Shown here one piece after another: positions 17,192-59,591 of a DNA stretch of 64,000 nucleotides. The notes beneath the pieces are model-generated. The model was given only the letters and a program-made list of their open reading frames with translations, was not told where the DNA came from and made no database searches. A program made the translations under genes and the position numbers. The first letter of the stretch is position 1. Each line of letters begins with the position of its first letter. Origin of the DNA: an uncultured Bacteroidales bacterium (GTDB lineage Bacteria; Bacteroidota; Bacteroidia; Bacteroidales; UBA932); assembly GCA_900316955.1 (NCBI GenBank), contig ONEX01000013.1, forward strand, positions 28,454 through 92,453, read 5' to 3'.

Positions 17192-18073
17192 ATGACACCC
17201 CAAGAGTTACTCAAGCGCGTCCGCAAGATCGAGATTAAGACGAAAGCCTTGTCCCACCAAATCTTCGCCGGTGAATACCACTCGGCCTTCAAGGGTCGTG
17301 GCATGGCGTTCAGCGAGGTGCGCGAGTACCAGTACGGGGACGATGTGCGGAACATGGACTGGAACGTGACGGCCCGCATGAGCGCGCCGTACGTGAAGGT
17401 GTTCGAGGAGGAGCGCGAACTCACCGTCGTCCTCCTGATCGACATCAGCCGTTCCGGCCTGTTCGGCACGGTGGGGGAGACCAAGCGGGAACTGGTGGCC
17501 GAGATTGCCGCCACCCTGGCCTTCTCCGCGATGCTCAACAACGACAAGGTGGGCGCCCTCTTCTTCAGCGACACGGTGGAAAAGTTCATCCCGCCCAAGA
17601 AAGGACGCAGCCACCTCCTGCACATCATCCGCGAAATCCTGGAATACACCCCCGAGCACGATGGGACGGACATCGGCGAGGCCCTCCGCTACCTGACGAA
17701 CGCCATCAAGCGGCGCTGCACCGCCTTCGTCCTCAGCGACATGCTGGATGTGGACGCGGACGGCGCTCCGCGCTACGAGGACGCCCTGAAGGTGGCCGTG
17801 AACCGCCACGATATCTCCGTCATCCGCGTGTACGACCCCCGCGAACGGACCATTCCGGACGTGGGCCTCGTCCATGTCAAGGACTCCGAGACTGGCAAGG
17901 GGGCCTGGATCAACACGTCCTCCCGAAGCACCCGCGCCGCCTACGAGCAGTGGTTCCGCACCGCGTCGGAAAGCGCGGCGAAACTGTTCAACCGCTACCA
18001 GGTGGACAGCGTGGACACCGCGACGGACCAGGATTATGTCAAGAACCTGATAGCCTTGTTCCACAGGCGATGA
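17192..18073 (+). CDS. DUF58 domain protein of the MoxR/Bat system
   Basis: This is a 293-residue soluble DUF58 protein. The family signature REYQYGDDVRNMDWNVTARM (about residues 45-64) is complete, followed by a VWA-like strand VVLLIDISRSGLFG with the DxSxS metal-site pattern. DUF58 proteins regularly sit between MoxR and the VWA proteins and are thought to be part of the same chaperone or assembly complex; the molecular function is not established. Its stop overlaps the next gene's start (ATGA at 18070), which suggests translational coupling. Confidence 0.9.
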   Translation: MTPQELLKRVRKIEIKTKALSHQIFAGEYHSAFKGRGMAFSEVREYQYGDDVRNMDWNVTARMSAPYVKVFEEERELTVVLLIDISRSGLFGTVGETKRELVAEIAATLAFSAMLNNDKVGALFFSDTVEKFIPPKKGRSHLLHIIREILEYTPEHDGTDIGEALRYLTNAIKRRCTAFVLSDMLDVDADGAPRYEDALKVAVNRHDISVIRVYDPRERTIPDVGLVHVKDSETGKGAWINTSSRSTRAAYEQWFRTASESAAKLFNRYQVDSVDTATDQDYVKNLIALFHRR

Positions 18074-45254: not shown

Positions 45255-48200
45255 CGGGTGACGGCCGCCTGGCCGGAAGCCGTGTTGGCGGCCACGTGCG
45301 GATTGTACATCGCCGAGCACGTGACGGCCGGCAGGGTGTACACGCCTTCGTAGGCGGCCCTGAGCTTCAGGTTGAAGGTTTTGGAAGCGCCGCGGCCCAG
45401 GTCGAAGAACCAGTCGCAGCGGTCGTCGCGGATGTCGCGGTGCTCCCCGCCGTTATCGACGCCCGTGCGGAGCCGGTCGTTGAGGATTTCCCAGCCGGAC
45501 GGGATGCGCTCGCTGAGAGCGAGGGACGTGTAGGCGTTCTGCGTGGGGTTCGTGACCTTCACGCTGGCGGTGAACTCCTTGCCCTGCGGGATGGAAGCCG
45601 GATTGACGGCATTCCCCTCGGCGTCCTTGTAGGTCACCTCGATCTTCAAGGCGTTGGAGGCGGCGGCGACCGGCGTTCCGGCCGGCGCCTTGCCCACCTT
45701 CGTCATCGTGGCGTACAGGAGTCCGTCGGCGGTATTCTGCACGTCCACCTTTCCGGAAACCGGCTGGGCATAGACGGATTTCGCCGAGGTGACTTCCTTT
45801 CCGCCCACCGTGGCCTTGACCGTCTGCGTGCCCACCTTGGCGAACAGACGGTCCATCGCCATGGCGGCGAAGGCGGCCTCCTGGGTTGAATACCAGCCCT
45901 TGTTGATCTCCTCGGCCACCTCGAGGGCGGCGGGAAGCGCCTGAGGCAGGTTGTCGGTGAGGGCGAGGACCTGGAGGAGGATGGACTTGTCCCGGAGCGT
46001 GGAACCGTACGTGAAGTCGCCGGCCCCGTATTCTCCGGTGGAGGCGACCTCCTTGTCCACGACCTCCTGGGCCGTCTTCACCTTGCCGCTCACGGCATAG
46101 GCGGCGGCGAGCATCCATTCGGCGCGGCCTTCCAGCTTGCCGGATTCCTTCAGGCGGTTCATCGCCGCATTGGCGGGCGCGCCCGCGACGGCGAGGGAGT
46201 AAAGCCGGTAGCACTCGTCCAGCTGGCTGAACACGGCGGTGCCGGCGAGGCGGTAGGCCTGGCTCAGGTTCGTCTGGAAGCGCTTCCAGTTGCCGATGAC
46301 ATCGTTCTGGACCTCGAAGCCGGCCGCGGCCGCCTCGGCGAGGAACTGGCCGGCCATGGAACTGGCCCAGGTGTCGGAGTTGTTGCCGCCGCTCCAGTAG
46401 GAGAAGCCGCCGTCGCTCCGCTGGCGGGCGTACAGCTGGTGGATGAGCCCCGGAATCTGCTCGCGCGCCTCCTCAGAATCGGCCTCGGAGAGCTGCGGAA
46501 GCAGGTGGAGCATCGTCAGGCCCCGGGCGGAGATCTGCTCGGTGCAGTTGTACGGATAGTTCTTCATCGTCCGGAACAGGCCGGCCGCATCGACGGCGGG
46601 GAAGCCCGCCAGCTCGAGGGTGGCGCCGTCACCGGCGTCGAACGCGACGCTCTTGCCCGGCTCGATGCGCTCCTGGCGGATGGTCACGGTCTCCGGATTC
46701 GGGTTCACGACCTGGATGTCGATGGTCTCCGAGGTCTTGCGGGAACCGCCTTCCGCCGTGACGGTGACCTTGGCGCCGCCTTCCCCGGCGGTCTTGAGGG
46801 CGAAGCGGACCACGTTGTCGCCCGCCTTGTCGAAGTGGGTCGTCGCGGTCGTGGCGCCGTCGGCCTGGAGGGCGCCCTCGGCCTTGACGGTGACCTTGAC
46901 GTCCTGGACCTTGTCGTCCAGGGCGAACACGTTCACCGGGAGGACGACGTTCTCTCCGGCGGCGATCTGCCTCGGGAGCGTGGCGAGGACCATCAGCGGG
47001 GATTTGACCGTCACGGTCTTCGCGGCGTTGCCGTAGGCCCCGTCGTGGCCGGCGACCACCATCACGCGGAGGCTGCCCACGTACATCGGAAGCTTGATGT
47101 CATGCTTGCCCGTGCCCTTGGCGAGGGTGAAGGGGCCCAGGAACTGCACCACCGGGTTGAACCGGTTGTCCTTGCGGGCCGCGCGGATGTTCTCCTGGTC
47201 GCCGCCGATGGACAGCATCGGGCTGAAGCGGCCGGCGAAGGCGCCGATCACCTCGTCGTACAGGTCCCAGGTCTTCACACCCAGGGCTTCGGTCTGGTAC
47301 ATCGCATCCCACGGGGACGGGGTCTTGAAGGCGGTGAGGTCCAGCAGGCCCTCGTCCACGACGGCGAGCGTGTAGGTCATGGGCTTCCCGGATTTCTCGG
47401 ACACCTGGACGGTGAACGCCTCCTCCGGGGCCACGGTGTCGGCCACCTTGACCACCGGCTCCAGGTGCGAGTCGGGATCCTCCACCAGGAGGCGCTTCAC
47501 GCCGTACAGGCGCAGCGGCTGGCCGCCTTCCGAAGCCTCGTACGGGCGGACCAGGGTGATATGGACATAGAAGTTCGGCGCCATCTCCGGGGTGACGGTG
47601 AAGGTGTAGGGCGTGTCCTTGGACGCGTCCGTGGACACCCACTCGCGGGCGATCACGCCGGCGGCGTTCTCCAGGCTCACGAGCGCCTGGCCGCCCTGGG
47701 CGGCGGGGATGTAGACCTTGGCCTTCTCGCCGGCGCGGTAGCTGTCCTTGTCGGCGGCAAAGGTGAGCATGGACAGGGCGTTGGGATCCTCGCGGCCGGA
47801 GCGGCCCTTGTAGGCGGGCCAGTCGATGACGACGGTCTGGCCGGCGATGTGACCGCCCGCGACGTCCCGCACGACGACCAGGTAGCGGCCCCAGTCGGCC
47901 TCGGCGGCGCGGAGGTTGAAGGTGACGTCCTGCGAGCCGGAAGTGAGCTTGCCGGAGGCGACGGGCTTCGCGTTCCGGCCGTTCACGTAGCCGGCGAGCT
48001 GGTCCGGGTCGTTGTCCCACCACCAGCTCCACTCGGTCTTGAACACGCGGTATTCCAGTTCGCGGCCGGAAAGCCGGGCCCCCTGGGCGTCGACCACGGC
48101 CACCTGGACGGTGTTGTCCTTGTCGGTCTCCAGTTCGCCGGCCGGCAGTTTCACGCCCACATAGGCCGGGAACGGGGAGTAGGGAACGGTCTGGGTGGTG

Positions 48201-50626
48201 AAGCTCTCGTCGCCGCCGCTTTCCAGGACGGAGGTGACGATGAAGGCCTGGAGCAGGCCGGGGGCGTCCTGCGCCGCCGGCAGCGTGAAGGCCGCCTCGG
48301 CGACGCCGTCGCTGTCAAGGGTGGCCTCGAACAGGGAATACTCGCTGTTCTCGAAGGAAGAGGCCGGGTTGCGGAAGGTGTAGCCCTCGAAGCCCTTGAA
48401 GGTGGCGGGACCCTTGCTCAGGGTCATCGTCGCGGAGGCGCGGAGGCCGGAAGCCGGGACGCCCGTGAGCCAGGAGGAGCTCACGCGGGCCGTGTTCCGG
48501 GCGCCGCCCTGGAGGATGTCTCCGGGCAGTTCCAGATTGACCTTCAGGCGGTTGGGCTTGACGGTCTCGATGTGGAGGCTCTTGTGGAAGGCGGAGCCGC
48601 CCACTTTCACATAGGCGTTCCACCAGCCGGTGGGATCGTCGGCGGAAGTGACGATGGGGAAGGTGTAGAAGCCGTCCTGCCCGGTGGAAACCATCCGGGT
48701 GTAGAACTGGCCTTCCGGGGTATAGAGCTCCAGGCTGGCCGGGTGGCCTTCCGGGAGGCGTTCCGCCTTGTCGGCGAGGATCATGGTCACGTGCAGGGTG
48801 TCGCCCGGACGCCAGACGCCCCGCTCCCCGTAGATGAAGCCCTTGAGGCCCTTGGAGACGGTCTGGCCGCCCACGTCGAAGCGGCTCATGGATTTCTCGT
48901 AGCCGTCGGCGAGGCGCAGGTAGCCCGTGGTCTTGCCCTTGCGGCCGAGGAGGATGAAGGGCTTGCGGGGAAGGTCGATCTGGGCGAGGCCCTTGCCGTC
49001 GGTGCGGCCCTTGCCGATGCGCTGGAGCTGGAAGTCGTACACTTCCAGGTCCACGCCGGAGGCGGGCTTCGCGTCGCCCAGGTCCGTCGCGGCGGCCCAG
49101 AGGGTGTTGCCGTCGGCGTACTGCGCGAGGAGGCCCAGGTTGGAGGATAGGAGGTTGATGGACGGGAACCGGTCGTCATCCATGTAGTAGGACGGCGTCT
49201 CGGGATTGTCCCGGTCCTCCCACTCGTACTGCTCCCAGTCCATGTAGTTGTCCCACCAGTAGGTGTTCTGGACGTCCCAGACCGCTTCCTCTTCCGGCGT
49301 GGGCTTGCCGCTCTGGACCGGCAGCATGGACGGAGCCTTCTTTCCGCCGTACAGGGAGTATTCCTGGCGGAAGGACAGGGTGATGCGGTAGATGGCGCCC
49401 GGCTCCTGCCTGAACAGGCCGGAGAGGTCCACGCTGTAGTCGTTCCAGGCGTGCGGGTCGCGGATGCCGTCGTCCGTCAGGGGAATCTGGCGGCTGTACA
49501 CGACGCGTCCCACCCGGCGGAGCCCGGAGGTGCCCGCCAGGCCGTTCTCCTGCAGGAACAGGAGCACGTTGTCCTCATAGATCTTGATGACGCGCAGGTC
49601 CACCGCGCTCAGGTTCACGGCGCGGAAGGGAAGCACGAGCTTGCTGTCGTCGGGAAGGATGGTGCCGTCGATGGGAATGGTCACGGCCGGGGCTGGATCC
49701 GTGGAGGGAAGGTCCATCCGGAAGCCTTCGGCGAGGGCTTGTCCGTCGGCGCTGCGCACACCCTGGTGCACCTGGAGGGCGAGGTCCTCCCGGGGATCGG
49801 CCTCGAAGTACACCCGGGCGACGTTGTCCTGGATGTCGACGGTCTGCCGCACGACGCCGTCCAGTTCGATGAGGCCTTCCCGGGAAGCGGTGGCCGCGAG
49901 GGGCTCGCTGAAGCGGACCTCCACGTGCGGGTTCTCCCCGCGGACGACGCGGGTGTCGATGACCTTGAAGCCGCCGGCGGCCGGGATGTAGGTCTTGCGG
50001 GAGACTTCCTGGTCGAAGTCCTTGACCTTCAGGGTGACCTTGATGGGGGTGTCTGCCGTGGAACGGTCGATGGGACCCGCCTCGAAGTGATACTGGGTCC
50101 CTTCCCCGGAAATCGCCACGGGGGCGGACGGGTCCACGGTCAGGGTGATGTCCTCCTTGGCCACGGGGACGCTCAGGGTGATGGTGCCCTGCAGGCGCGC
50201 GCCGTCGCGGATGGTGACTCCGTCCAGGGAGAGCGCCGCCGCGTGGGGCGCCGCCTGGATGCGGAAGGGGAACACCTTGCACTGGCTTTCCTGCACGGGC
50301 AGGACCTTGCCCACCTGGAAGGAGCCTTCATACACGGTGCCGCTCTTCCAGCCGTCCGGGACGAACTCGACCACGGTCGGGCTCAGCCACCGTTCGGAGC
50401 CCTGGAGGGCGGGTTTGAAGGAGAACAGGCCGTCGGTCTGCCTGTCCATGGGGACGGGGGAGGCCAGTTCGATCCGGATGGCCGCGCCGTCGCTCACCAC
50501 GCCGCCCGTATAGGCCTTGACGTAGTTGGCGAAAGCCGGATCCAGGGTTTCGGCTCCCTTGGGGGCGCAGGCCGCCAGCAGGGCGGCCGAAAGGGCCAGA
50601 AAGGCCCACATACGGATACGACGCAT
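45251..50626 (-). CDS. Alpha-2-macroglobulin lipoprotein with thioester site
   Basis: This 1791-residue periplasmic lipoprotein has signal MRRIRMWAFLALSAALLAAC with lipobox LAAC. Macroglobulin domains fill the first 1200 residues (MG2-type GVWRPGDTLHVTMILADKA near 600), the alpha-2-macroglobulin core follows (AVVDEGLLDLTAF and FVVQ-like strands), and the toroid starts with YPYNCTEQISARG, where CTEQ (Cys1361-Gln1364) is the thioester motif that covalently traps attacking proteases. It ends with a receptor-binding-type domain (LSERIPSGWEILNDR). The start at 50626 gives the lipoprotein signal; the frame is open 73 codons further but holds no better start. Coupled with PBP1C it would protect and help repair the cell wall. 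Confidence 0.93.
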   Translation of the reverse strand: MRRIRMWAFLALSAALLAACAPKGAETLDPAFANYVKAYTGGVVSDGAAIRIELASPVPMDRQTDGLFSFKPALQGSERWLSPTVVEFVPDGWKSGTVYEGSFQVGKVLPVQESQCKVFPFRIQAAPHAAALSLDGVTIRDGARLQGTITLSVPVAKEDITLTVDPSAPVAISGEGTQYHFEAGPIDRSTADTPIKVTLKVKDFDQEVSRKTYIPAAGGFKVIDTRVVRGENPHVEVRFSEPLAATASREGLIELDGVVRQTVDIQDNVARVYFEADPREDLALQVHQGVRSADGQALAEGFRMDLPSTDPAPAVTIPIDGTILPDDSKLVLPFRAVNLSAVDLRVIKIYEDNVLLFLQENGLAGTSGLRRVGRVVYSRQIPLTDDGIRDPHAWNDYSVDLSGLFRQEPGAIYRITLSFRQEYSLYGGKKAPSMLPVQSGKPTPEEEAVWDVQNTYWWDNYMDWEQYEWEDRDNPETPSYYMDDDRFPSINLLSSNLGLLAQYADGNTLWAAATDLGDAKPASGVDLEVYDFQLQRIGKGRTDGKGLAQIDLPRKPFILLGRKGKTTGYLRLADGYEKSMSRFDVGGQTVSKGLKGFIYGERGVWRPGDTLHVTMILADKAERLPEGHPASLELYTPEGQFYTRMVSTGQDGFYTFPIVTSADDPTGWWNAYVKVGGSAFHKSLHIETVKPNRLKVNLELPGDILQGGARNTARVSSSWLTGVPASGLRASATMTLSKGPATFKGFEGYTFRNPASSFENSEYSLFEATLDSDGVAEAAFTLPAAQDAPGLLQAFIVTSVLESGGDESFTTQTVPYSPFPAYVGVKLPAGELETDKDNTVQVAVVDAQGARLSGRELEYRVFKTEWSWWWDNDPDQLAGYVNGRNAKPVASGKLTSGSQDVTFNLRAAEADWGRYLVVVRDVAGGHIAGQTVVIDWPAYKGRSGREDPNALSMLTFAADKDSYRAGEKAKVYIPAAQGGQALVSLENAAGVIAREWVSTDASKDTPYTFTVTPEMAPNFYVHITLVRPYEASEGGQPLRLYGVKRLLVEDPDSHLEPVVKVADTVAPEEAFTVQVSEKSGKPMTYTLAVVDEGLLDLTAFKTPSPWDAMYQTEALGVKTWDLYDEVIGAFAGRFSPMLSIGGDQENIRAARKDNRFNPVVQFLGPFTLAKGTGKHDIKLPMYVGSLRVMVVAGHDGAYGNAAKTVTVKSPLMVLATLPRQIAAGENVVLPVNVFALDDKVQDVKVTVKAEGALQADGATTATTHFDKAGDNVVRFALKTAGEGGAKVTVTAEGGSRKTSETIDIQVVNPNPETVTIRQERIEPGKSVAFDAGDGATLELAGFPAVDAAGLFRTMKNYPYNCTEQISARGLTMLHLLPQLSEADSEEAREQIPGLIHQLYARQRSDGGFSYWSGGNNSDTWASSMAGQFLAEAAAAGFEVQNDVIGNWKRFQTNLSQAYRLAGTAVFSQLDECYRLYSLAVAGAPANAAMNRLKESGKLEGRAEWMLAAAYAVSGKVKTAQEVVDKEVASTGEYGAGDFTYGSTLRDKSILLQVLALTDNLPQALPAALEVAEEINKGWYSTQEAAFAAMAMDRLFAKVGTQTVKATVGGKEVTSAKSVYAQPVSGKVDVQNTADGLLYATMTKVGKAPAGTPVAAASNALKIEVTYKDAEGNAVNPASIPQGKEFTASVKVTNPTQNAYTSLALSERIPSGWEILNDRLRTGVDNGGEHRDIRDDRCDWFFDLGRGASKTFNLKLRAAYEGVYTLPAVTCSAMYNPHVAANTASGQAAVTR

Positions 50627-50660
50627 ATCGGTATAAGTTTGAATTCTATGATTATTCATA

Positions 50661-50668
50661 CAAAGATA
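50661..50668 (-). promoter_or_regulatory. -7 promoter box for the alpha-2-macroglobulin/pbpC operon
   Basis: TATCTTTG on the minus strand matches TAnnTTTG, 34 bases before the start codon at 50626. A second, identical box faces the other way 14 bases further on. Confidence 0.65.
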
Positions 50669-50682
50669 AATAAAATTAATGT

Positions 50683-50690
50683 TATCTTTG
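50683..50690 (+). promoter_or_regulatory. -7 promoter box for the sulfonolipid operon
   Basis: TATCTTTG on the plus strand matches TAnnTTTG, 24 bases before the ATG at 50715. It is the only good promoter seen upstream of the six-gene operon. Confidence 0.65.
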
Positions 50691-50714
50691 CGAGATTGTA
50701 ATCTTAATGAACGT

Positions 50715-51797
50715 ATGCAAAACCCGTGCGGATTCAATATTTCCGGCATCCAGCAGGTCGGTGTCGGAACGGAAAACTTCAGAGCTTCCTGGAACTGGTT
50801 CATCCGGATGTTCGGAACGGACGTGAAAATCCTCGAGGATGACACCGTGGCGGAAAGGATGCTGCCCTACACGGGCAACCAGCCGCAGAAACGCCATGCC
50901 TGCATCGCCGTGAACCTCCAGGGCGGCGGCGGATTCGAGATCTGGCAGTACTCCGAGCGGAAGCCGCAGCCGGTCGGGTTCGACATCGCCGTGGGCGACC
51001 TCGGCGTCTTCGCCGCGAAACTCAACTGCCGCGACATCCCCGCCTGCCACCGGGCCCTCAAGGCCAAGTGGGACGCCGTCTCCGAGGTGAGCGCCCTGCC
51101 CGACGGAACCCCCTGCTTCTATGTCAAGGACCTCTTCGGCAACTGCTTCCAGCTGGTGCAGACGGATTACATCTACATCGACGAAGGCAAGCTGACCGGC
51201 GGCATGGCCGGCACCGTGGTGGGCGTGACCGACATGGACAAGTCCATCGCCTTCTACCGGGAAATCCTCGGCTACGATACCGTGAAATATGATGAGACCG
51301 GCGTCTTTGCCGACTGGTCCCTCCTTCCGGGCGCCGGCGAAAGGTACCGCCGCGTCCTGATGGTCCCTTCGAAGCCCCGCCAGGGGGCCTTCACCGCCCT
51401 GATGGGCCCGGACTGCATCGAACTGGTGCAGGCGCTGGACCGCACCCCGCGAAAGATCTACGAGGGCCGCTACTGGGGCGACCCGGGCTTCATCCAGATC
51501 TGCTACGACGTCACCGGGATGCGGGAACTGGAGAAATTCTGCGCGGAGAAGGGCCATCCCTTCACCGTGGACAGCTGCCCCGGCGGCATCACCTTCGACA
51601 TGGGCGACGCCTCCGGCCACTTCACCTACATCGAGGACCCGGACGGCACCCTGATCGAGTTCGTGGAGACGCACAAGGTCCCCGTGGTGAAGAAGCTGGG
51701 CTGGTACATCGACATGAAGAAGCGCGACCCGCGCAAGCCCCTCCCGAAGTTCCTGTTCCGCGCGATGGGACTCGTCTCCCGGGAAAAAGTGAAATGA
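50715..51797 (+). CDS. Two-module VOC-fold (glyoxalase/dioxygenase superfamily) protein
   Basis: This 360-residue cytoplasmic protein is built of two vicinal-oxygen-chelate modules: GIQQVGVGTENFRASWNWFIRMFG (from about residue 8) and GTVVGVTDMDKSIAFYREILGYD (from about 162), each followed by the usual GGGFEIWQY or DCIELVQAL strand. The His that normally opens each module and binds metal is Gln in the first and absent in the second, while Glu residues remain. So a classical HPPD or glyoxalase reaction is doubtful. It is the first gene of the sulfonolipid operon, 33 bases before the acyltransferase. It might hydroxylate, bind or present a lipid intermediate; this is inference. Confidence 0.8.
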   Translation: MQNPCGFNISGIQQVGVGTENFRASWNWFIRMFGTDVKILEDDTVAERMLPYTGNQPQKRHACIAVNLQGGGGFEIWQYSERKPQPVGFDIAVGDLGVFAAKLNCRDIPACHRALKAKWDAVSEVSALPDGTPCFYVKDLFGNCFQLVQTDYIYIDEGKLTGGMAGTVVGVTDMDKSIAFYREILGYDTVKYDETGVFADWSLLPGAGERYRRVLMVPSKPRQGAFTALMGPDCIELVQALDRTPRKIYEGRYWGDPGFIQICYDVTGMRELEKFCAEKGHPFTVDSCPGGITFDMGDASGHFTYIEDPDGTLIEFVETHKVPVVKKLGWYIDMKKRDPRKPLPKFLFRAMGLVSREKVK

Positions 51798-51830
51798 ATT
51801 GAAAACTGAAACATAAACCAATCTATCATC

Positions 51831-53096
51831 ATGCAGACAGACATTTTTGAGAAGATACGCCGTTCCACCGGCGGTCCCATCGGCCAGTACCGCGACAAGG
51901 CCGACGGTTACTTCGCGTTCCCGAAACTCGAGGGCGAACTCGGCCCGCACATGCGCTTCGCCGGGAAGGAAGTCCTTTGCTGGAGCCTGAACAACTACCT
52001 GGGCCTGGCGAACCATCCCGAGATCCGCAAGGTCGACGCCGAGGCCGCCGCCCGCTGGGGCATGGCCTACCCGATGGGCAGCCGGATGATGACTGGCCAG
52101 ACGGCCCTCCACGAGAAGTTCGAGCGGATGCTCGCCGACTTCGAGAAGAAGGAGGCCGCCTTCCTGTTCAACTTCGGCTACCAAGGCATCTTCTCTACGA
52201 TCGACGCCCTGGTGGGCCGGCACGACGTCATCGTCTATGACGCCGAGTGCCATGCCTGCCTGCTGGACGGCATCCGCCTCCACATCGGCGACAAGTTCAA
52301 GTTCCGCCACAACGACGCGAAGGACTGCGACCGCGTCCTCGCCCGCGCCACGAAGGTGGCCGAGGAGAGCGGCGGCGGCATCCTCGTCATCACCGAGGGC
52401 GTGTTCGGAATGACCGGCGCCCTGGGCATCCTGGACCAGATCGTGGCCCTGAAGCAGAAGTACAACTTCCGCTTTATGATCGACGACGCCCACGGCTTCG
52501 GCGTGATGGGCCCCCACGGCCGCGGCACCTCCGAGCATTTCGGGGTGATGGACGGGGTGGACCTGTATATCGGCGCCTATGCGAAGTCGATGGCCACCAT
52601 CGGCGGCTTCGTCGCTTCCGACAAGGACATCATCGACTACCTGCGCTACAACATGCGCTCCCAGATCTACGCCAAGTCCCTGCCGATGCCCATCGTGGAA
52701 GGCTGCATCAAGCGCCTCCAGATCATCGACAGCCCCGAGGGCGACGAGCGCCGCGCGCACCTGTGGAAGGTGACCCGCCGGCTGCAGGAAGGCTTCCGGG
52801 AGATGGGATTCGACATCGGCCCGGCCGAGGCCTGCGTGACCCCGGTCCATGTGAAAGCCGGCCTGGAGCAGGCGACGAACATCGTCGTGGACCTGCGGCA
52901 GAACTACCGCATCTTCTGCTCGGTGGTCATCTATCCGGTCATCCCGCTGGGCATGGTCATCTTCCGCATCATCCCGACGGCGGCCCATTCGATGGAGGAC
53001 GTCGAGCGGACCCTCGCCGCCTTCAAGGAAATCAAGGAGCGGCTGGACCGCGGCGAATACGACAAGCCCATTCCCGACATCTCCCTGTACAAGTAG
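51831..53096 (+). CDS. PLP alpha-oxoamine synthase, probable cysteate fatty-acyltransferase
   Basis: This 421-residue PLP enzyme is of the serine palmitoyltransferase/KBL class, which condenses an amino acid with an acyl thioester and loses CO2. Visible motifs: CWSLNNYLGLANHPEI near the start, PMGSRMMTGQTALHEKFE, the cofactor-stacking DAECHACLLDG, FMIDDAHGFGVMGPHGRG, and GAYAKSMATIGGFVAS with PLP-Lys252. The class also covers serine palmitoyltransferase. The cysteate synthase two genes downstream makes cysteate the likelier amino acid, giving 3-ketocapnine as in the Alistipes enzyme known as SulA. The reductase follows without any gap. Confidence 0.85.
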   Translation: MQTDIFEKIRRSTGGPIGQYRDKADGYFAFPKLEGELGPHMRFAGKEVLCWSLNNYLGLANHPEIRKVDAEAAARWGMAYPMGSRMMTGQTALHEKFERMLADFEKKEAAFLFNFGYQGIFSTIDALVGRHDVIVYDAECHACLLDGIRLHIGDKFKFRHNDAKDCDRVLARATKVAEESGGGILVITEGVFGMTGALGILDQIVALKQKYNFRFMIDDAHGFGVMGPHGRGTSEHFGVMDGVDLYIGAYAKSMATIGGFVASDKDIIDYLRYNMRSQIYAKSLPMPIVEGCIKRLQIIDSPEGDERRAHLWKVTRRLQEGFREMGFDIGPAEACVTPVHVKAGLEQATNIVVDLRQNYRIFCSVVIYPVIPLGMVIFRIIPTAAHSMEDVERTLAAFKEIKERLDRGEYDKPIPDISLYK

Positions 53097-53882
53097 ATGG
53101 AGACCGTCTGGATTACCGGCGCTTCCTCCGGCATCGGGGAAGCCTGCGCATACCGCTGGGCCGAAGGCGGGGCGCGGCTCGTGATCACGGCCCCCACCGC
53201 GGAGGAACTGGAACCGGTGGCCGCGAAATGCCGGGAGAAAGGCGCTCCCGACGTGGCCGTCCTTCCGTACGACCTCAGCAAGCCTGACGGCATCCCGGCC
53301 CTGGTGCAATCGGCCTGGGAGGCCTTCGGTGGCCTGACCACCGTCTATCTGAACGCCGGCATCAGCCAGCGCACCTCCGTGGAGGACACGTCCATGGACA
53401 TGCTCCGGCTGCTGATGGAAATCGACTATTTCGCCCCGGCCGGCATCGCGAAGGAGCTCCTGCCGCGGATGGTCGCGCAAGGCGGCGGCCATATCGGCGT
53501 CACGACCTCCATCGCCGGCCGCTTCGGCTTCCGGCTCCGCTGCGGCTACTGTTCCGCCAAGGCTGCTCTGTACGGGTTCTTCGAGACCGTGCAGGCGGAA
53601 TCCTACGACAAGGGCATCCGGGTGACGATCGTCTGCCCGGGCCGCGTCCGTACGAACATCTCCCTCCGCGCCCTGGACAAGGGCGGGAAGCCTCACGGAC
53701 GGATGGACCCCGGCCAGGCCGGCGGCATCACCGTCGAGAAGGCCTCCAAAAAGATCGTGAAAGCGATCCGCCAGGGCCGCCGCGAGGTGCTCGTGGGCAG
53801 CAAGGAACTGCTCATGGTCTATGTCAAACGCTTCTTCCCGGGCCTCTGCGCCAAGCTCGCCCGTAAACTGAAACCTGTATGA
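53097..53882 (+). CDS. Short-chain dehydrogenase/reductase, probable 3-ketocapnine reductase
   Basis: This 261-residue Rossmann-fold reductase has nucleotide motif TGASSGIGEA (about residues 7-16), LNAGISQ (about 84-90), and a catalytic triad with Ser in TTSIAG, Tyr151 and Lys155 (YCSAK), then CPGRVRTNIS. It resembles the DHRS7/3-ketosphinganine reductase class. The natural role here is NADPH reduction of the 3-keto lipid made by the upstream acyltransferase, giving capnine or a sphinganine-like base. The C-terminus is basic and amphipathic (VKRFFPGLCAKLARKLKPV), which suggests membrane association. Its ATG follows the previous stop directly and its stop overlaps the next start. Confidence 0.85.
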   Translation: METVWITGASSGIGEACAYRWAEGGARLVITAPTAEELEPVAAKCREKGAPDVAVLPYDLSKPDGIPALVQSAWEAFGGLTTVYLNAGISQRTSVEDTSMDMLRLLMEIDYFAPAGIAKELLPRMVAQGGGHIGVTTSIAGRFGFRLRCGYCSAKAALYGFFETVQAESYDKGIRVTIVCPGRVRTNISLRALDKGGKPHGRMDPGQAGGITVEKASKKIVKAIRQGRREVLVGSKELLMVYVKRFFPGLCAKLARKLKPV

Positions 53883-55156
53883 AACCGACCTCCTACCGAC
53901 TGATGAATGTCGCTACCGGCCGCGTCTTCGACGACGCCGGCTGGACGATGGGCGACCCCGAAGGCGGAAGCCCTTCCCTCGTGCGGGCCGTCTATGAGAA
54001 CAAGCGGTTCACCCCGCGGGACGACCTGGACGGCATCTACCGCTATGCGGACTGGATGCCCATCAAGCGCACGCTCCGCAAATCCTGCGCCCCGGTGACC
54101 TACAAGTCCAAGGGCCTGGCCCGGTACCTGGGCCTGGAGAACCTGTACATCACGTTCTCCGGCTGGAATCCCCGCATCGGCGCGAAGATGCGCACCTGTT
54201 CGTTCAAGGAGACGGAAGCCTATTCCGTGCTGGCGCGGATGGACGCCCGCGAGAAGCGGGTCCTGATCGTCCAGTCCGCCGGCAACACCGCCCGGGCCTT
54301 CGCCCAGGTGTGCTCCGACAACCGCATCCCCATCGTCATCTGCGTCCCCGAGGACAACCTGCACGACCTGTGGTTCCGCCGGAAGCTGCACCCCTGCGTG
54401 AAGCTCGTGGCAGCGCCGCACGGATGCGACTACTACGACGCCATCACTGTGGGTGAGAAGCTGGCGACCGACCCGCGTTACATGCTGGAAGGCGGGGCGA
54501 AGAACGTGGCTCGGCGTGACGGCATGGGCACGACCCTCCTGAGCTGCGTGGAGCAGATGGGGCGGATTCCCGACGCCTATTTCCAGGCCGTGGGCTCCGG
54601 CACCGGCGCCATCGCCGCCTGGGAGAACGCCTGCCGCCTGGGCGAAGACGGCCGCTTCGGGGAGAACAAGATGCGGGTGTACGTCGCCCAGAACGAGCCG
54701 TTCACGCTGATGTACGACTCCTGGAAGGCCGGTTCCCGCGCCCTGGTGGACCTGGATCCCGAACAGGGCCGGCACGAGGCCGAGGTGGTCCTCGCGAGCG
54801 TCCTTTCCAACCGGAAACCGCCGTACAGCCTCGCCGGCGGCCTGTTTGACACGCTGAAGGCCAGCGGCGGCGACTTCTATACCGCGACCAACAACGAGAT
54901 TGTCCACTGGATGCTCCAGTTCCGCAACCGCGAAGGGTACGACCTCCTGCCGGCGGCCTGCGTCGCCGTGACCGCCCTGGCGAAAGCCGTGGAGGACGGC
55001 ACCGTGGGCAAGGACGAATATGTCATGCTCAACTGCACCGGCGGCGGCGTCCTCGGGGCGATGTCCAAGGGCTTCGTCCTCAAGGAACCCGACCTGGTGC
55101 TCTCTCCGGACCTCCCCGCCGAGGAAATCGTCCGGCAAGTGAATGCCCTGTTTTGA
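53879..55156 (+). CDS. Cysteate synthase (threonine-synthase-like PLP enzyme)
   Basis: This 425-residue fold-type II PLP enzyme has the characteristic N-terminus of cysteate synthase (a conserved YADWMP...VTYKSKGLARYLGL), PLP-Lys110 in MRTCSFKETEA, VQSAGNTARAFAQ as phosphate-binding loop, and GSGTGAIAAWE. Length and order match cysteate synthase, first described in methanogens for coenzyme M, where it makes L-cysteate from O-phosphoserine and sulfite. Placed between an alpha-oxoamine synthase, an SDR and a YeiH transporter, it would feed sulfonolipid synthesis. Threonine synthase or diaminopropionate ammonia-lyase are alternatives, but neither fits the neighbours. Start overlaps the SDR stop (ATGA). 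Confidence 0.85.
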   Translation: MKPTSYRLMNVATGRVFDDAGWTMGDPEGGSPSLVRAVYENKRFTPRDDLDGIYRYADWMPIKRTLRKSCAPVTYKSKGLARYLGLENLYITFSGWNPRIGAKMRTCSFKETEAYSVLARMDAREKRVLIVQSAGNTARAFAQVCSDNRIPIVICVPEDNLHDLWFRRKLHPCVKLVAAPHGCDYYDAITVGEKLATDPRYMLEGGAKNVARRDGMGTTLLSCVEQMGRIPDAYFQAVGSGTGAIAAWENACRLGEDGRFGENKMRVYVAQNEPFTLMYDSWKAGSRALVDLDPEQGRHEAEVVLASVLSNRKPPYSLAGGLFDTLKASGGDFYTATNNEIVHWMLQFRNREGYDLLPAACVAVTALAKAVEDGTVGKDEYVMLNCTGGGVLGAMSKGFVLKEPDLVLSPDLPAEEIVRQVNALF

Positions 55157-55160
55157 CGTT

Positions 55161-55187
55161 GTCATTCTGAGCGCAGCGAAAGAATCT
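55161..55187. repeat. Family B repeat within the sulfonolipid operon
   Basis: 27-base element beginning GTCATTCTGAGCGCAGCG, with terminal arms ATTCT (55164-55168) and AGAAT (55181-55185). It lies in the 48-base gap between cysteate synthase and yeiH. Related copies are at 59587 and 60934. Confidence 0.88.
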
Positions 55188-55204
55188 AAAACCTATTTGC
55201 AAAT

Positions 55205-56545
55205 ATGAAAACGAACCTCTCCAACCTTTGGAAAAAGGAAGACTGGCTGGCCGTCTGGATCGGCTTCGCCGTCATCGCCATCGCGTGCATCGCGGTGCTC
55301 ACCGGCGCCTTCGACTTCGCGGCCGCCAAGTTCTCCACCTGGCATCTGTGGGAGAATGTCGCCGAGAAGAAATCCCTCCTGGCGCAGCTCAACGGCGCGT
55401 TCTGGGTGAAGCTTCTCCGCACCTTCCTGGTGCTGGGCGTCCTGTTCACCCTCGGCGTCAAGCTGCAGGGCGGTAAGATCAAGGAATACATCCCCGCCTT
55501 CCTCGTCCTCTTCGTGCTGTCCGTCCTCGTGCGCGTGATCAGCGCCGAGTTCACCCTGAACCGCTACCTCGAGTGGGCCTTCTGGGCGCTCATCGTGGGC
55601 CTCCTGATTTCCAACACCGTGGGTGTGCCCAAGTGGCTGAAGCCCGCCATCCGCACCGAGTTCTACATCAAGACCGGTCTGGTGATCATGGGTTTCTCCG
55701 TGCTGTTCAGCAACATCGCCAAGTTCGGCCTGTACGGCCTGGGCATCGCGTGGATCGTCACCCCGATCGTGATCCTGTTCATGTGGTGGTTCGGCACGAA
55801 GGTCCTCAAGATGGACAACAAGCCGCTCGTGATCACCCTCGCCTCGGCGACGTCCGTCTGCGGCACCTCCGCGGCCATCGCCACGGGGGCGGCCGCCGGC
55901 GCCAAGAAGAACGACCTCGGCATCGCGATCTCCATCTCCATCATCTTCACCATCCTGATGATGGTGTTCGAACCCATGATCATCAAGGCGACGGGCATGT
56001 CCCAGCTGATGGGCGGCGCGCTCATCGGCGGTACCGTCGATTCCACCGGCGCGGTGGTCCTCGCGGGTAACGCCCTGGGCGCCGAAGCCGAGCAGGCCGC
56101 GGTCCTGGTGAAGAGCATCCAGAACATCCTCATCGGCTTCATCGCCTTCTTCGTTGCCCTGTTCTTCGCCACCCGCGTGGATAAGACCGAAGGCAAGAAA
56201 GTGGGCGCCGGCGAGATCTGGACCCGCTTCCCGAAGTTCATCATCGGCTTCTTCGTGGCTTCCCTCGTGGCCTCCTTCCTGATCCAGCCGCTGGCCGGCT
56301 CCGACAGCGTGAAGGCCATCAACGGCGTGCTGGACCAGTACAAGAACTGGTGCTTCGTGCTCGCGTTCACCTCCATCGGCCTGGACACCAATTTCCGCGA
56401 GATCGCGAAGCAGATGCAGGGCGGCAAGGTGCTGTGGCTGTACATCGTGGGCCAGACGTTCAACATCGCCCTGACCTTCTTCGCGGTGTGGCTGCTCCTG
56501 TCCGGCGTCCTGTTCGACATCCCGGTGCTGGACCTGTACAAGTAA
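55205..56545 (+). CDS. YeiH-family putative sulfate/sulfite export transporter
   Basis: This 446-residue inner-membrane protein has about eleven membrane helices. Signatures of the YeiH family are LIVGLLISNTVGVPKWLKPAIRTEFYIKTGLVIMG, ATSVCGTSAAIATGAAAGAKKNDL and GALIGGTVDSTGAVVLAG. The family is named for probable sulfate or sulfite export; substrate evidence is limited and partly genomic. Cysteate synthase, two positions away, uses sulfite, so a transporter that removes excess sulfite or sets its level fits the operon. A family B repeat separates the two genes. The next gene starts on the last base of this gene's stop (TAATG). Confidence 0.88.
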   Translation: MKTNLSNLWKKEDWLAVWIGFAVIAIACIAVLTGAFDFAAAKFSTWHLWENVAEKKSLLAQLNGAFWVKLLRTFLVLGVLFTLGVKLQGGKIKEYIPAFLVLFVLSVLVRVISAEFTLNRYLEWAFWALIVGLLISNTVGVPKWLKPAIRTEFYIKTGLVIMGFSVLFSNIAKFGLYGLGIAWIVTPIVILFMWWFGTKVLKMDNKPLVITLASATSVCGTSAAIATGAAAGAKKNDLGIAISISIIFTILMMVFEPMIIKATGMSQLMGGALIGGTVDSTGAVVLAGNALGAEAEQAAVLVKSIQNILIGFIAFFVALFFATRVDKTEGKKVGAGEIWTRFPKFIIGFFVASLVASFLIQPLAGSDSVKAINGVLDQYKNWCFVLAFTSIGLDTNFREIAKQMQGGKVLWLYIVGQTFNIALTFFAVWLLLSGVLFDIPVLDLYK

Positions 56546-56832
56546 TGGACCCCAAGCGGCGCAAACGCATTTTCCGGACGGTCACGATCCTCACGGTCGT
56601 GGCCGTCCTCGGTTGCGCCGGCTGGATCATGGCGTGCCGGCTGGGCCTCTCTCCGGACTATGACTTCGGCGCGGGGGCCTACTACTATGCCGACATTCCC
56701 GGCTTCGACAAGGTGGTCCGGGACGATGTCTATCACACGAAGGTCCCCCTCTGGGTCCATATCGTCCTTTTCCTGGCCTGGGGCTGGCTGATGTACCGGC
56801 TCTGGGTGTGGATTGACAGCCGGAAACCCTGA
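56545..56832 (+). CDS. Small two-helix membrane protein coupled to yeiH
   Basis: This 95-residue protein starts MDPKRRKRIFRTV, a basic cytoplasmic N-terminus, followed by a membrane helix (VTILTVVAVLGCAGWIMAC, about 13-31), a periplasmic loop with aromatic and acidic residues (DYDFGAGAYYYADIPGFDK) and a second helix (VPLWVHIVLFLAWGWLMYRLWVWI, about 68-91). It shares one base with the yeiH stop (TAATG), which implies translational coupling and a role as an accessory subunit or partner of the transporter. I do not recognise a named family. Confidence 0.75.
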   Translation: MDPKRRKRIFRTVTILTVVAVLGCAGWIMACRLGLSPDYDFGAGAYYYADIPGFDKVVRDDVYHTKVPLWVHIVLFLAWGWLMYRLWVWIDSRKP

Positions 56833-56867
56833 CGCTTACAATTTTATGGATATAACGAAAGATTTGT

Positions 56868-56875
56868 TATATTTG
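56868..56875 (+). promoter_or_regulatory. -7 promoter box for the Omp85-like gene
   Basis: TATATTTG matches TAnnTTTG in an AT-rich gap after the sulfonolipid operon, about 30 bases before the probable start codon. Confidence 0.65.
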
Positions 56876-56905
56876 CCTGCAGAATCGACTTAAATGATGA
56901 CAAAT

Positions 56906-58351
56906 ATGAAGAAATTATTCCTGACTTCCATCGCCCTGCTCGCCGCAGGCGCGATGCTCACCCTTTCCGCCCAGGAGCAGGAGAAGGAAATGAAGACCGG
57001 CTGGAGCTTCGGCCTCCTTCCTACCGCCACCTGGTCCACGGACAACGGCTTCCAGGCCGGCGCTTTCGGCGACGTCTACTACTATGGCGACGGCTCCACC
57101 TATCCGGACCCGCTCCACAAGATCAGCTGGGAAGCCTCCTACTTCACGCACAGCCACCGGATGCGCCTGTACCTGGCCTATGACTCCAAGTACCTGATCC
57201 CCAATATGCGTGTCAATGCGTCCGTGACCTATATGAACGACCCCCTGTACAGTTTCTGGGGCTTCAACGGTCCGGCCGCCGTGCAGGATTACGACCTGTG
57301 GTCCAACCGCAACACCGGCGCGGGCCATCACCTGAACTACTATGGGATGAGCCGCGATATGCTCCGCATCCTGGCCAATTTCCAGGGCCGCATCGCCGAC
57401 AACCTGAACTGGGCGGCCGGCGTCAACTTCTGGCGTTGGAAGCTGGGAGATATGAAGGACAATGGCGTCAAGGGAACCGGAGACGCCAAGGAGTACTACA
57501 ATACCGACCTGACGCTCTACAAGAAATACATCGAGCTGGGCGCCATCACGGAGGCCGAAAAGAACGGCGGAACGGCCCTGGAGCTGAACGCCGGCCTGGT
57601 GTTCGACACCCGTGACATCGAGGCGGCCCCGAACCGCGGCATCTGGGCGGAGGCCTACCTGAACGGCAACGTCCTGAACCAGCGTTACCTGAAGGCCTGC
57701 GCCTACTTCCGTCACTACATCGACATTCCCATCCACCTTCCGGCCGGCGACCCGGTGTTCGCCTACCGCCTGGCCTGGCAGCAGACCATTGCCGGCGAGA
57801 CCCCGTTCTATATGATCCAGAACATCCCGCTGCTGGTCCAGCGCAACATGATCTCCGAGGGCTTCGGCTCCAGCGGCACCATCCGCGGCCTGCGCGAGAA
57901 CCGGATCCTGACCGAGGGCTTCGCCTGGGCGAACACGGAACTGCGCGTGAAGCTGGTGAACTTCAAGCTGTTCAACCAGTACTTCTACATCGCCCTGAAT
58001 CCGTTCTTCGACGCCGGCGTCATCACCAAGCCCTACCGTACGGATTTCCTGAAGGGCGTCATCAATGACGGAGGGCTGAAGGACTTCGATTTCGCCGCCT
58101 ACCGCAAGTACCTGGAGGGCGATCCCAAGAACGCCGCGACGCTCGAACGCTTCAACAAGGTCCACGGCGCCGGCTATGACGGCAAGATCTACGACGCCGC
58201 CCGGGTGAAGGACTTCGTGTACAGCGGCGGTATCGGCCTCAAGATCGCGATGAACCAGAACTTCATCGTCTCCGCCGAGTACGCGCACTGCTTCTACACG
58301 CCGATGAATGCGGATCCCTGGATCGGCATCGGTATGAACTACCAGTTCTAG
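56906..58351 (+). CDS. Omp85/BamA-type outer-membrane barrel protein lacking POTRA domains
   Basis: This is a protein of about 481 residues with signal MKKLFLTSIALLAAGAMLTLSAQ and only a 16-strand-type barrel. The Omp85 marks are LNAGLVFDTRDIEAAPNRGIWAEA (about 228-251), a lid-loop motif IRGLRENRI in place of the usual VRGY/F (about 331-339), and a C-terminal WIGIGMNYQF strand. There is no N-terminal POTRA chain, so it is not BamA itself. Such short members resemble the barrel of patatin-linked Omp85 proteins, and their cargo is unknown. ATGs at 56894 and 56897 are also in frame; 56906 starts the signal peptide. Confidence 0.8.
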   Translation: MKKLFLTSIALLAAGAMLTLSAQEQEKEMKTGWSFGLLPTATWSTDNGFQAGAFGDVYYYGDGSTYPDPLHKISWEASYFTHSHRMRLYLAYDSKYLIPNMRVNASVTYMNDPLYSFWGFNGPAAVQDYDLWSNRNTGAGHHLNYYGMSRDMLRILANFQGRIADNLNWAAGVNFWRWKLGDMKDNGVKGTGDAKEYYNTDLTLYKKYIELGAITEAEKNGGTALELNAGLVFDTRDIEAAPNRGIWAEAYLNGNVLNQRYLKACAYFRHYIDIPIHLPAGDPVFAYRLAWQQTIAGETPFYMIQNIPLLVQRNMISEGFGSSGTIRGLRENRILTEGFAWANTELRVKLVNFKLFNQYFYIALNPFFDAGVITKPYRTDFLKGVINDGGLKDFDFAAYRKYLEGDPKNAATLERFNKVHGAGYDGKIYDAARVKDFVYSGGIGLKIAMNQNFIVSAEYAHCFYTPMNADPWIGIGMNYQF

Positions 58352-58403: not shown

Positions 58404-59591
58404 TCAGTAAGTCAGGAATCCGTGCCGGAGGCGCGCCAGGCCATCCAGCAGCGTCTTTCGGGGACAGGCGATGTTGAGACGTTCGAAGCCTTCGGCGTCG
58501 GCCCCGTAGATGGTGCCGGTGGAAAGGATGAGCTTGGCCTCGTAGCGGAGATGCTGCGCGAAGCGCTCGGAGAAGCCCTCGAGGGGCTCGTCCGCGTGGC
58601 GGGCGGCGCGGCAGTCCAGCCACATCAGGTAGGTGCCTTCCAGCGGGAGGGCCGTCACCTGCGGGATTTCCTCCTTGAGGTACTTGTACACCAGCTGCGC
58701 ATTCTCATACAGGTAGGCGCGCAGGGCGTCCAGCCACTCCTCCGACTCGTTGTAGGCCGCTTCCAGGGCCGCGCAGCCGAACACGTTCACGTCGCAGCAT
58801 TCGTTGTCGTTGATGGCCCGGTCGATGCGGCGGCGGACCTCCGGGTCCGCTGCGAAGATGTTCGCGATCTGGATGCCGGCGATGTTGAAAGACTTGGTGG
58901 GGGAGATGCAGGAGGCGGAATTCCGCACCAGCTCCTCCGGGAGGGTGGCCCACGGCGTGTAGTCGTGGCCGGGGTAGGTGAGTTCGCAGTGGATCTCGTC
59001 GGAAATGACGAACACCCCGTGCTTCAGGCAGATTTCTCCGATGCGTTCCAGCTCCTCCCGGGTCCATACCCGGCCGGCGGGGTTGTGCGGATTGCACACC
59101 AGCATCACGGTCGTCTTGGGGTCGGCCGCCTTGGCTTCCAGGTCTGCCCAGTCGATTGAATAAGTGTTGTCCTTGTAAACCAGCGTGTTGCACAGCTCCC
59201 GGCATCCGTTGTTCCGGATGGCGGGGAAGAAAGCGTTGTACACCGGCGTCTGGACGATGACATTGTCCCCGACCCGGGCCATCGCCTTGATGCAGGCGGA
59301 ATAGGCCGGGATGACGCCCGTCGTGGGGATGAGCTGTTCCCGGGTGATGCCTTTCCAGCCGTGCCGGCGGTCGAACCAGCTGCTGATGGCGTCATAGTAC
59401 GACTGCGGCACCAGCTCGTAGCCGAACACGCCGTGCTCCAGCCGTCTGCGCAGCGCCTCCAGGATGGCCGGAGAAGCCTTGAAATCCATGTCCGCCACCC
59501 ACAGCGGCAGCGTATCCTCCTCGAACAGGTCCCATTTCACGCTCGCCGTGTTCCGGCGCGGGACGATCTCATCAAAATTGAACTTTGTCAT
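58404..59591 (-). CDS. MalY/PatB-family C-S lyase or aminotransferase
   Basis: This 395-residue fold-type I PLP enzyme is of the MalY/PatB class, which splits cystathionine and other S-conjugates to thiols, pyruvate and ammonia. Family marks: PLWVADMDFKASPAILEALRRR near the start, FGYELVPQSYYDAISSWF, VCNPHNPAGRVWTREEL, ISDEIHCEL, and SPTKSFNIAGIQ with PLP-Lys233. It could contribute sulfide or thiols to sulfur metabolism near the sulfonolipid genes, but that link is only positional. Odd: its start codon lies inside a family B repeat. It is 20 bases downstream of the DUF3737 gene and probably shares its transcript. Confidence 0.9.
   Translation of the reverse strand: MTKFNFDEIVPRRNTASVKWDLFEEDTLPLWVADMDFKASPAILEALRRRLEHGVFGYELVPQSYYDAISSWFDRRHGWKGITREQLIPTTGVIPAYSACIKAMARVGDNVIVQTPVYNAFFPAIRNNGCRELCNTLVYKDNTYSIDWADLEAKAADPKTTVMLVCNPHNPAGRVWTREELERIGEICLKHGVFVISDEIHCELTYPGHDYTPWATLPEELVRNSASCISPTKSFNIAGIQIANIFAADPEVRRRIDRAINDNECCDVNVFGCAALEAAYNESEEWLDALRAYLYENAQLVYKYLKEEIPQVTALPLEGTYLMWLDCRAARHADEPLEGFSERFAQHLRYEAKLILSTGTIYGADAEGFERLNIACPRKTLLDGLARLRHGFLTY

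Follow-up and report, generated by a model that had tools for sequence, protein, structure and literature searches.

A window of 64,000 nucleotides (the whole stretch analyzed) from an uncultured Bacteroidales bacterium of the UBA932 lineage (GenBank assembly GCA_900316955.1, contig ONEX01000013.1, positions 28,454 to 92,453 of the forward strand; genome of 3.1 Mb, 98.5% complete) contains, at 50715-56832, a six-gene operon whose assignment to sulfonolipid (capnine) synthesis is well supported by the sequences of its products. We further consider it probable that this is a shortened version of a longer operon found in its relatives, and that the sulfite consumed by the pathway is supplied in those relatives by a block of heterodisulfide reductase (Hdr) and EtfD-like proteins, and in the window by a YeiH-type transporter acting with a small membrane protein (SMP).

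Immune activity is under discussion for the sulfonolipids of gut Bacteroidota, and in the literature examined we met no explanation for the source of sulfite in their anaerobic makers. The genes most tightly linked to cysteate synthase in these organisms code for a redox complex and a sulfite-type transporter, where genes for sulfate reduction were not found. If our reading is true, a complex known from energy metabolism would have a biosynthetic use, and YeiH-SMP and a vicinal-oxygen-chelate (VOC) protein could be named as parts of the system. More generally, gut Bacteroidales that make sulfonolipids without sulfate assimilation might obtain sulfite by anabolic, menaquinone-linked oxidation through an HdrABC/EtfD-like complex, with some lineages, including that of the window, having dropped the complex and importing sulfite through YeiH-SMP; this is a tentative generalization, more apt to fail than to hold.

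All six genes lie on the + strand, in the order and at the positions at which a preliminary description, made by reading the sequence, had placed them:

50683-50690, + strand: promoter box TATCTTTG, a TAnnTTTG-type -7 box from a pattern scan; probable operon promoter
50715-51797, + strand: VOC, two-domain vicinal-oxygen-chelate protein, 360 aa; PF00903, 34.7 bits
51831-53096, + strand: CFAT, SulA/CapB-type alpha-oxoamine synthase; cysteate acyltransferase
53097-53882, + strand: SDR, short-chain dehydrogenase/reductase (PF00106, 139 bits); probable 3-ketocapnine reductase
53879-55156, + strand: CYS, predicted archaeal-type cysteate synthase, dependent on pyridoxal phosphate (PLP), using phosphoserine and sulfite; TIGR03844
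53879-53882, + strand: SDR/CYS overlap, the point where close relatives hold the Hdr/EtfD-like block of about 4.9 kb
55205-56545, + strand: YeiH, PF03601 membrane transporter; probable sulfite carrier
56545-56832, + strand: SMP, partner of YeiH, a membrane protein of 95 aa that matches no Pfam or NCBIfam model

The spacings from VOC to SMP are 33, 0, -4, 48 and -1 bases, so that the gaps of 0-48 bases first reported were nearly right, apart from two overlapping pairs. That the operon goes beyond chance follows from the recurrence of its gene order in many other contigs.

In the mechanism that we propose, CYS would convert O-phosphoserine and sulfite to L-cysteate, CFAT would condense the latter with an acyl thioester to give 3-ketocapnine, and SDR would reduce its ketone, while the remaining genes would mostly handle the awkward substrate, sulfite. 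In the relatives, a quinone-linked complex of HdrC, HdrB, HdrA, a second HdrC and the EtfD-like protein would oxidize reduced sulfur to sulfite for CYS, with the EtfD-like membrane subunit handing electrons to menaquinone; the block would thus be an anabolic counterpart of the sulfur-oxidizing sHdr system. Passage of sulfite over the inner membrane would fall to YeiH and SMP. The window lineage, which would have lost the Hdr block and kept only this pair, would rely on external sulfite taken in by YeiH-SMP, or on another source. The sequences show which genes are there, their arrangement, their joint occurrence and what is missing, whereas the direction of the Hdr reaction, the cargo and direction of YeiH, the chemistry of VOC and the making of the lipid itself are inferred.

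Core enzymes of the sulfonolipid pathway

The best solved matches of CFAT are PDB 7u7h, from Alistipes finegoldii (E 2.4e-169, 566.7 bits), and PDB 28eh, whose chain is named cysteate-C-fatty acyltransferase (E 7.5e-163, 545.3 bits), with the best serine enzyme far below them at 224.9 bits. 7U7H is SulA, which is set apart from the serine enzymes by Lys281, its catalytic lysine being Lys251 (PMC9304779). The equivalent residues of the window protein are Lys282 and Lys252, and the diagnostic lysine, together with Asn54, His141, Asp218, His221, Lys252 and Arg379, is kept in 64 of 64 aligned CFATs. The condensation with an acyl thioester that had been postulated stands as a step, with the qualification that the characterized SulA uses an acyl-acyl carrier protein as donor and acyl-CoA only poorly (PMC9304779).

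CYS scores 432.5 bits on TIGR03844, more than 100 bits clear of the cut-off of 324.9, and matches a solved structure named 'Cysteate synthase' (PDB 9k3c) at E 6.5e-147; the SFKE lysine at 110 is presumably the PLP lysine and GSGTG at 239 the phosphate loop. SDR displays the motifs TGASSGIG (TGxxxGxG) at 7 and YCSAK (YxxxK) at 151, with no PDB match at E <= 1e-25. Since CFAT and CYS share their superfamilies with serine palmitoyltransferase and threonine synthase, the locus might in principle make a sphingoid base of the ordinary kind derived from serine, the neighboring enzyme being a threonine synthase. This is very improbable: CFAT reaches 290.6 bits on the serine palmitoyltransferase model NF047600 against a cut-off of 640, CYS reaches 62.9 bits on the best threonine-synthase model against 303, and Lys282 stands where the serine enzymes have alanine. 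Both assignments were dropped on these model scores and the diagnostic lysine.

The three core steps of capnine synthesis are already known in print, as the preliminary description had stated, and are the same as those of the Alistipes, Chryseobacterium and Capnocytophaga pathway (SulA/CFAT/CapB, Cys/CapA and KCR/CapC). The archaeal type of the window CYS is that reported for Alistipes and Odoribacter, Capnocytophaga having CapA instead (PMC10191378, a review), and its CFAT keeps the SulA lysine. In contrast, the tested reductase genes of C. gleum and A. finegoldii are not adjacent to those of the acyltransferase and synthase (PMC11211663), whereas in the window the probable reductase gene is in one operon with the other two and with VOC, YeiH and SMP.

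The association of these genes was examined in a draw of 149 genomes from the window's family, a CFAT being counted if its identity was at least 59% (82 genomes, out of 125 with any match). CFAT is present in 71 of the 73 genomes with CYS, 59 of the 61 with HdrB, 32 of the 33 with VOC and 11 of the 11 with SMP. Locus content, under thresholds that we set, was counted around VOC homologs, of which a scan with the VOC alignment gave at least 581; the VOC-locus counts use the best 80 of them. The nearest of these loci come from goat and other ruminant-type Bacteroidales metagenome-assembled genomes. As a side observation, in 20 of the 80 VOC loci the place of CYS beside CFAT is taken by a threonine-synthase-like PLP protein, here called PALPx (about 112 bits on TIGR03844, below the cut-off; e.g., L108 9377-10600, L143, L149 and L158), which is perhaps a third kind of cysteate synthase.

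The Hdr/EtfD-like block in relatives

Two loci of close relatives, L125 and L128, show a longer operon, in the order VOC, CFAT, SDR, HdrC, HdrB, HdrA, second HdrC, EtfD-like, CYS, YeiH and SMP. Their VOC, CFAT and YeiH proteins are 86-98% identical to those of the window, and the two genes upstream are also the same (72-85% identical), placing the operons at the same chromosomal site. In L125, SDR ends at 13152, HdrC starts at 13159 and CYS at 18071 or 18077. The block is missing from the operons of the window and of L126, the latter at a different chromosomal site, and a search of the whole window genome found no HdrB. In the CFAT tree, the window groups with L125 and L128 (support 0.79) with L126 outside, which makes loss of the block in the window lineage the simpler reading. 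The compact operon first described is the short form of a longer one, lacking what close relatives carry between SDR and CYS.

The family has two kinds of sulfonolipid locus, and that of the window is the VOC kind. Most members of the window's genus have CFAT elsewhere, between gyrB and a 7TM-HD gene and without VOC (e.g., L092, L093 and L094), accompanied by an SDR only 29-33% identical to that of the window. The window CFAT is 84-85% identical to the VOC-operon CFATs of other genera (G080, G049 and G011) against 70-75% to those of its own genus, and clusters with the VOC-type CFATs in the tree. These sequence relationships are consistent with an operon that was transferred or replaced. The GC and GC3 of the operon genes match those of the window, however, so that base composition lends no support to horizontal acquisition.

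The link of the block to cysteate synthase is not confined to these relatives. The preliminary description had proposed a survey of cysteate-synthase neighborhoods in Bacteroidales as a check, and in the 20 CYS loci that we read among 73 (L034-L053), the Hdr block lies immediately 5' of CYS on the same strand in 17, chiefly from genomes that lack VOC. Of the remaining three, two come from the window's genus and have Hdr at another place, and one comes from a genus-22 genome that has no HdrB. Among the VOC loci, HdrC-B-A stand before CYS, between it and SDR, in 13 of 80.

The subunits themselves suggest a redox function. HdrA of the relatives is short (341 aa) and, like that of sHdr, lacks the N-terminal extension, matching methanogen HdrA in part; its only full-length solved match is 6tjr (5.8e-55), which we take to be an sHdrA. 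HdrB matches methanogen HdrB, while HdrC and the second HdrC (105-112 aa) are dicluster ferredoxins. The EtfD-like subunit (600 aa) combines a NarI-like membrane part, two Fe-S centers and two CCG domains, and its predicted structure (pLDDT 87.7, pTM 0.82) matches mycobacterial EtfD (9ojn) over the full length at E 1.3e-19, with a TM score of 0.72 and 17% identity. As modeled, this is the anatomy of a complex predicted to exchange electrons with quinone and, by analogy, we infer that the electrons would flow toward menaquinone. The likeness to EtfD, the membrane ETF:menaquinone oxidoreductase, extends over the whole subunit, with the difference that its partners here are Hdr proteins.

The full sHdr set has the layout C1-B1-A-Hyp-C2-B2, with separate C2 and B2 subunits. 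The relatives do not carry this set: their genes code for HdrC, HdrB, HdrA, another HdrC and a single EtfD-like protein. What the block shares with sHdr is the HdrA of about 340 aa that matches 6tjr, HdrB, HdrC and, as we propose, the product sulfite, which sHdr makes in Hyphomicrobium (PMC12423496). It differs in having one EtfD-like membrane subunit for C2/B2 and in being tied to cysteate synthase rather than to energy metabolism; the window lacks it altogether.

A source of sulfite was also sought among the genes of sulfate reduction, in 26 genomes of our choice. CysD/CysH-type proteins (PF01507) above the cut-off were absent from 25 of the 26, the window included, with 14 of 14 controls positive; one further genome among the 26 gave a weak match below the cut-off. 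Sat (PF01747) was found in none of the 26, again including the window, with 5 of 14 controls positive. The chemistry of the pathway, said earlier to close, does so only given a supply of sulfite, and the route by which sulfate reduction usually provides it was not found. As CYS needs sulfite made by a redox reaction, and CysD/CysH and Sat were not found, formation of sulfite by the block is our leading idea.

Alternatively, the block might act with VOC in a redox step on the lipid or its acyl chain, instead of forming sulfite. EtfD works with ETF in acyl-CoA oxidation, and is the nearest structure to the membrane subunit. Moreover, Hdr genes directly follow VOC in 26 of the 80 loci, many without CYS nearby. 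Against this stand the position of the block directly 5' of CYS even in genomes without VOC and the lack of any redox substrate of CYS other than sulfite, which must first be formed. On balance, we hold the lipid-directed role to be less likely than not.

The YeiH-SMP pair and its possible part in the supply of sulfite

YeiH of the window matches PF03601 (175.5 bits, cut-off 24.5) with about ten hydrophobic segments, but misses the cut-off of TIGR00698, the YeiH subfamily model (85.1 against 232.6 bits), and so is a divergent member that we call 'YeiH-type' only. SMP has a clear hydrophobic segment at 13-31 and, by eye, a weaker one near the C-terminus. The two proteins travel together: the 11 of the 149 genomes that have a close YeiH (at least 73% identity) are precisely those that have SMP. 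YeiH follows CYS or SDR in 12 of the 80 VOC loci, at 5-71 bases in eight and within about 500 in the other four, and SMP is then present in 11, the contig ending in the twelfth.

It could be argued that YeiH and SMP are only bystanders that came to lie beside CYS, given that a close YeiH-SMP pair lies away from CYS and CFAT in several genomes. Yet the 12 loci with the pair behind CYS or SDR are spread across the CFAT tree, which calls for eight or more changes of state, and all 53 genomes of the family draw with YeiH at E < 1e-50 (the threshold for counting it, passed by 53 of the 70 genomes with a match) also have CFAT. We therefore regard mere adjacency as improbable.

As to cargo, yeiH mutants of Salmonella are sulfite-sensitive, YeiH protecting the cell from sulfite (PMC12880088), and the YeiH of Hyphomicrobium is described as an exporter of sulfite that works after sHdr (PMC12423496). 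Because these published members handle sulfite, as would the window protein if it follows the family whose profile it matches, sulfite is a reasonable cargo, either for import or for export. The window protein departs from the family in falling below TIGR00698, in its biosynthetic operon and in its obligate-looking partner of 95 aa. The 'sulfur-anion transporter' first suggested is consistent with PF03601 and the sulfite link, for transport in either direction, the homologs being associated with sulfite resistance and export.

Among the 11 genomes, including the window, whose VOC operons have YeiH but no Hdr, 10 lack HdrB anywhere; conversely, seven chosen genomes with Hdr operons have no close YeiH (0 of 7), one having a relative at 38% identity. 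For VOC loci with CFAT and either CYS or PALPx and at least 6.5 kb downstream (n=38), both Hdr and YeiH are present in 2, Hdr only in 21, YeiH only in 9 and neither in 6 (p 0.001, with kinship ignored). The table is also biased, in that YeiH comes to lie nearer the edge of the available sequence where an Hdr block precedes it, and no exclusion is seen in the family draw (p 0.11). Strict mutual exclusion was dropped on these three grounds, and we claim only that the two modules are labile. On 35 loci, Fitch counts are 8 changes for YeiH and 9 for Hdr, with shuffled means of 10.7 and 9.5.

Several observations weigh against our reading of the two modules as sulfite suppliers. In the family draw, YeiH is found in 35 of the 58 Hdr-positive sulfonolipid genomes and Hdr in 10 of the 11 genomes with close YeiH, and 4 of 79 sulfonolipid-type genomes have neither; 17 genomes have only weaker YeiH relatives, outside our count, and five of these lack CFAT. 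VOC also adjoins Hdr genes at sites remote from CYS, and Hdr may therefore act in a different reaction. The likeness to sHdr, whose partners are the lipoate-binding protein LbpA and DsrE3, extends to HdrA, HdrB and HdrC. Finally, the published YeiH homologs are described as exporters, not importers.

This last point leads to the closest competitor, namely that YeiH-SMP is an exporter, a safety valve that would remove excess sulfite so that CYS runs unpoisoned, with the sulfite arriving otherwise. The Salmonella and Hyphomicrobium reports favor such a role, as do the frequent company of YeiH with Hdr in the family draw and the presence of both in one operon in L125 and L128. We rate its chances as somewhat short of even: with HdrB missing from 10 of the 11 genomes of YeiH-only VOC operons, and no CysD/CysH or Sat found in these, an exporter alone leaves their sulfite unexplained.

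VOC, the promoter and neighboring genes

The AlphaFold model of VOC (pLDDT 92.9, pTM 0.92) finds only general VOC folds as structural neighbors (4huz, 1zsw, 3oaj, plant glyoxalase I and GLOD4). It shares the fold of two-domain (four-module) proteins, among them the dioxygenase 4huz, plant glyoxalase I and GLOD4, with identities of 10-14%, but its family, in contrast to these, lacks an invariant histidine. VOC dioxygenases of the extradiol/HPPD type bind iron through two invariant histidines and one glutamate. No such set is present among the 52 VOC homologs: none of their histidines is invariant, the most conserved being His61 (46 of 52), while Gln13, Gln14, Glu75, Glu236, Glu315 and Glu318 are. 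Such a pattern argues against an iron-dependent dioxygenase and fits an anaerobic host. We regard VOC as probably an enzyme of isomerase- or lyase-like type that depends on a metal, rather than an oxygenase; that it acts as a lyase or epimerase on 3-ketocapnine, or on an adduct of a sulfite carrier, is a guess only.

The gene after VOC is CFAT in 30 and SDR in 11 of the 80 loci, beside the 26 with Hdr genes noted above. CFAT is missing from the stretch in 35 VOC loci; 32 of their genomes were searched (all save those of L127, L169 and L201), and a CFAT with at least 54% identity is present in 30, none being found in the L168 and L170 genomes. A second VOC clade, about 50% identical (L085, L086, L089, L090 and L103), adjoins an SDR 38-45% identical to that of the window, away from CFAT. 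A MarR-type regulator lies on the opposite strand in 11 of the 80 VOC loci (L157 18622-19068 and ten more).

VOC, YeiH and the 95-residue protein, put forward earlier as new operon members, are indeed recurrent neighbors of the pathway, and their combination was not found in print. In the open-licence literature, we found no report joining sulfonolipids to YeiH or to heterodisulfide reductase, and that on heterodisulfide reductase with Alistipes concerns, by its titles, other matters. As far as that literature goes, two arrangements thus appear to be new: the operon that unites the pathway genes with VOC, YeiH and SMP, and the placing of an Hdr/EtfD block next to cysteate synthase.

The single promoter of the preliminary description is plausible. 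The sequence TAnnTTTG is what we take to be the Bacteroidales promoter box, and the TATCTTTG copy lies 25 bases 5' of the VOC start codon. The only other + strand copies within 50500-57000 are at 50634, upstream, and 56868, past the operon. A sigma-70 scan gave no site before VOC, a result that is uninformative for this phylum. In the list of reading frames, the VOC frame begins at 50679, and 50715 is its first ATG past the box. A mirror-image copy at 50668-50661 on the - strand serves a divergent alpha-2-macroglobulin-like gene, which with a penicillin-binding protein 1C gene forms an upstream pair (43107-50632, - strand) conserved with L125 and L128. Downstream lie an Omp85-family outer membrane protein (56894-58351, + strand; NF047779, 239 bits), to which the TAnnTTTG box at 56868 belongs, and, two genes from the operon, a sulfur-metabolism gene for a PatB-family C-S lyase (58404-59591, - strand; TIGR04350, 420 bits).

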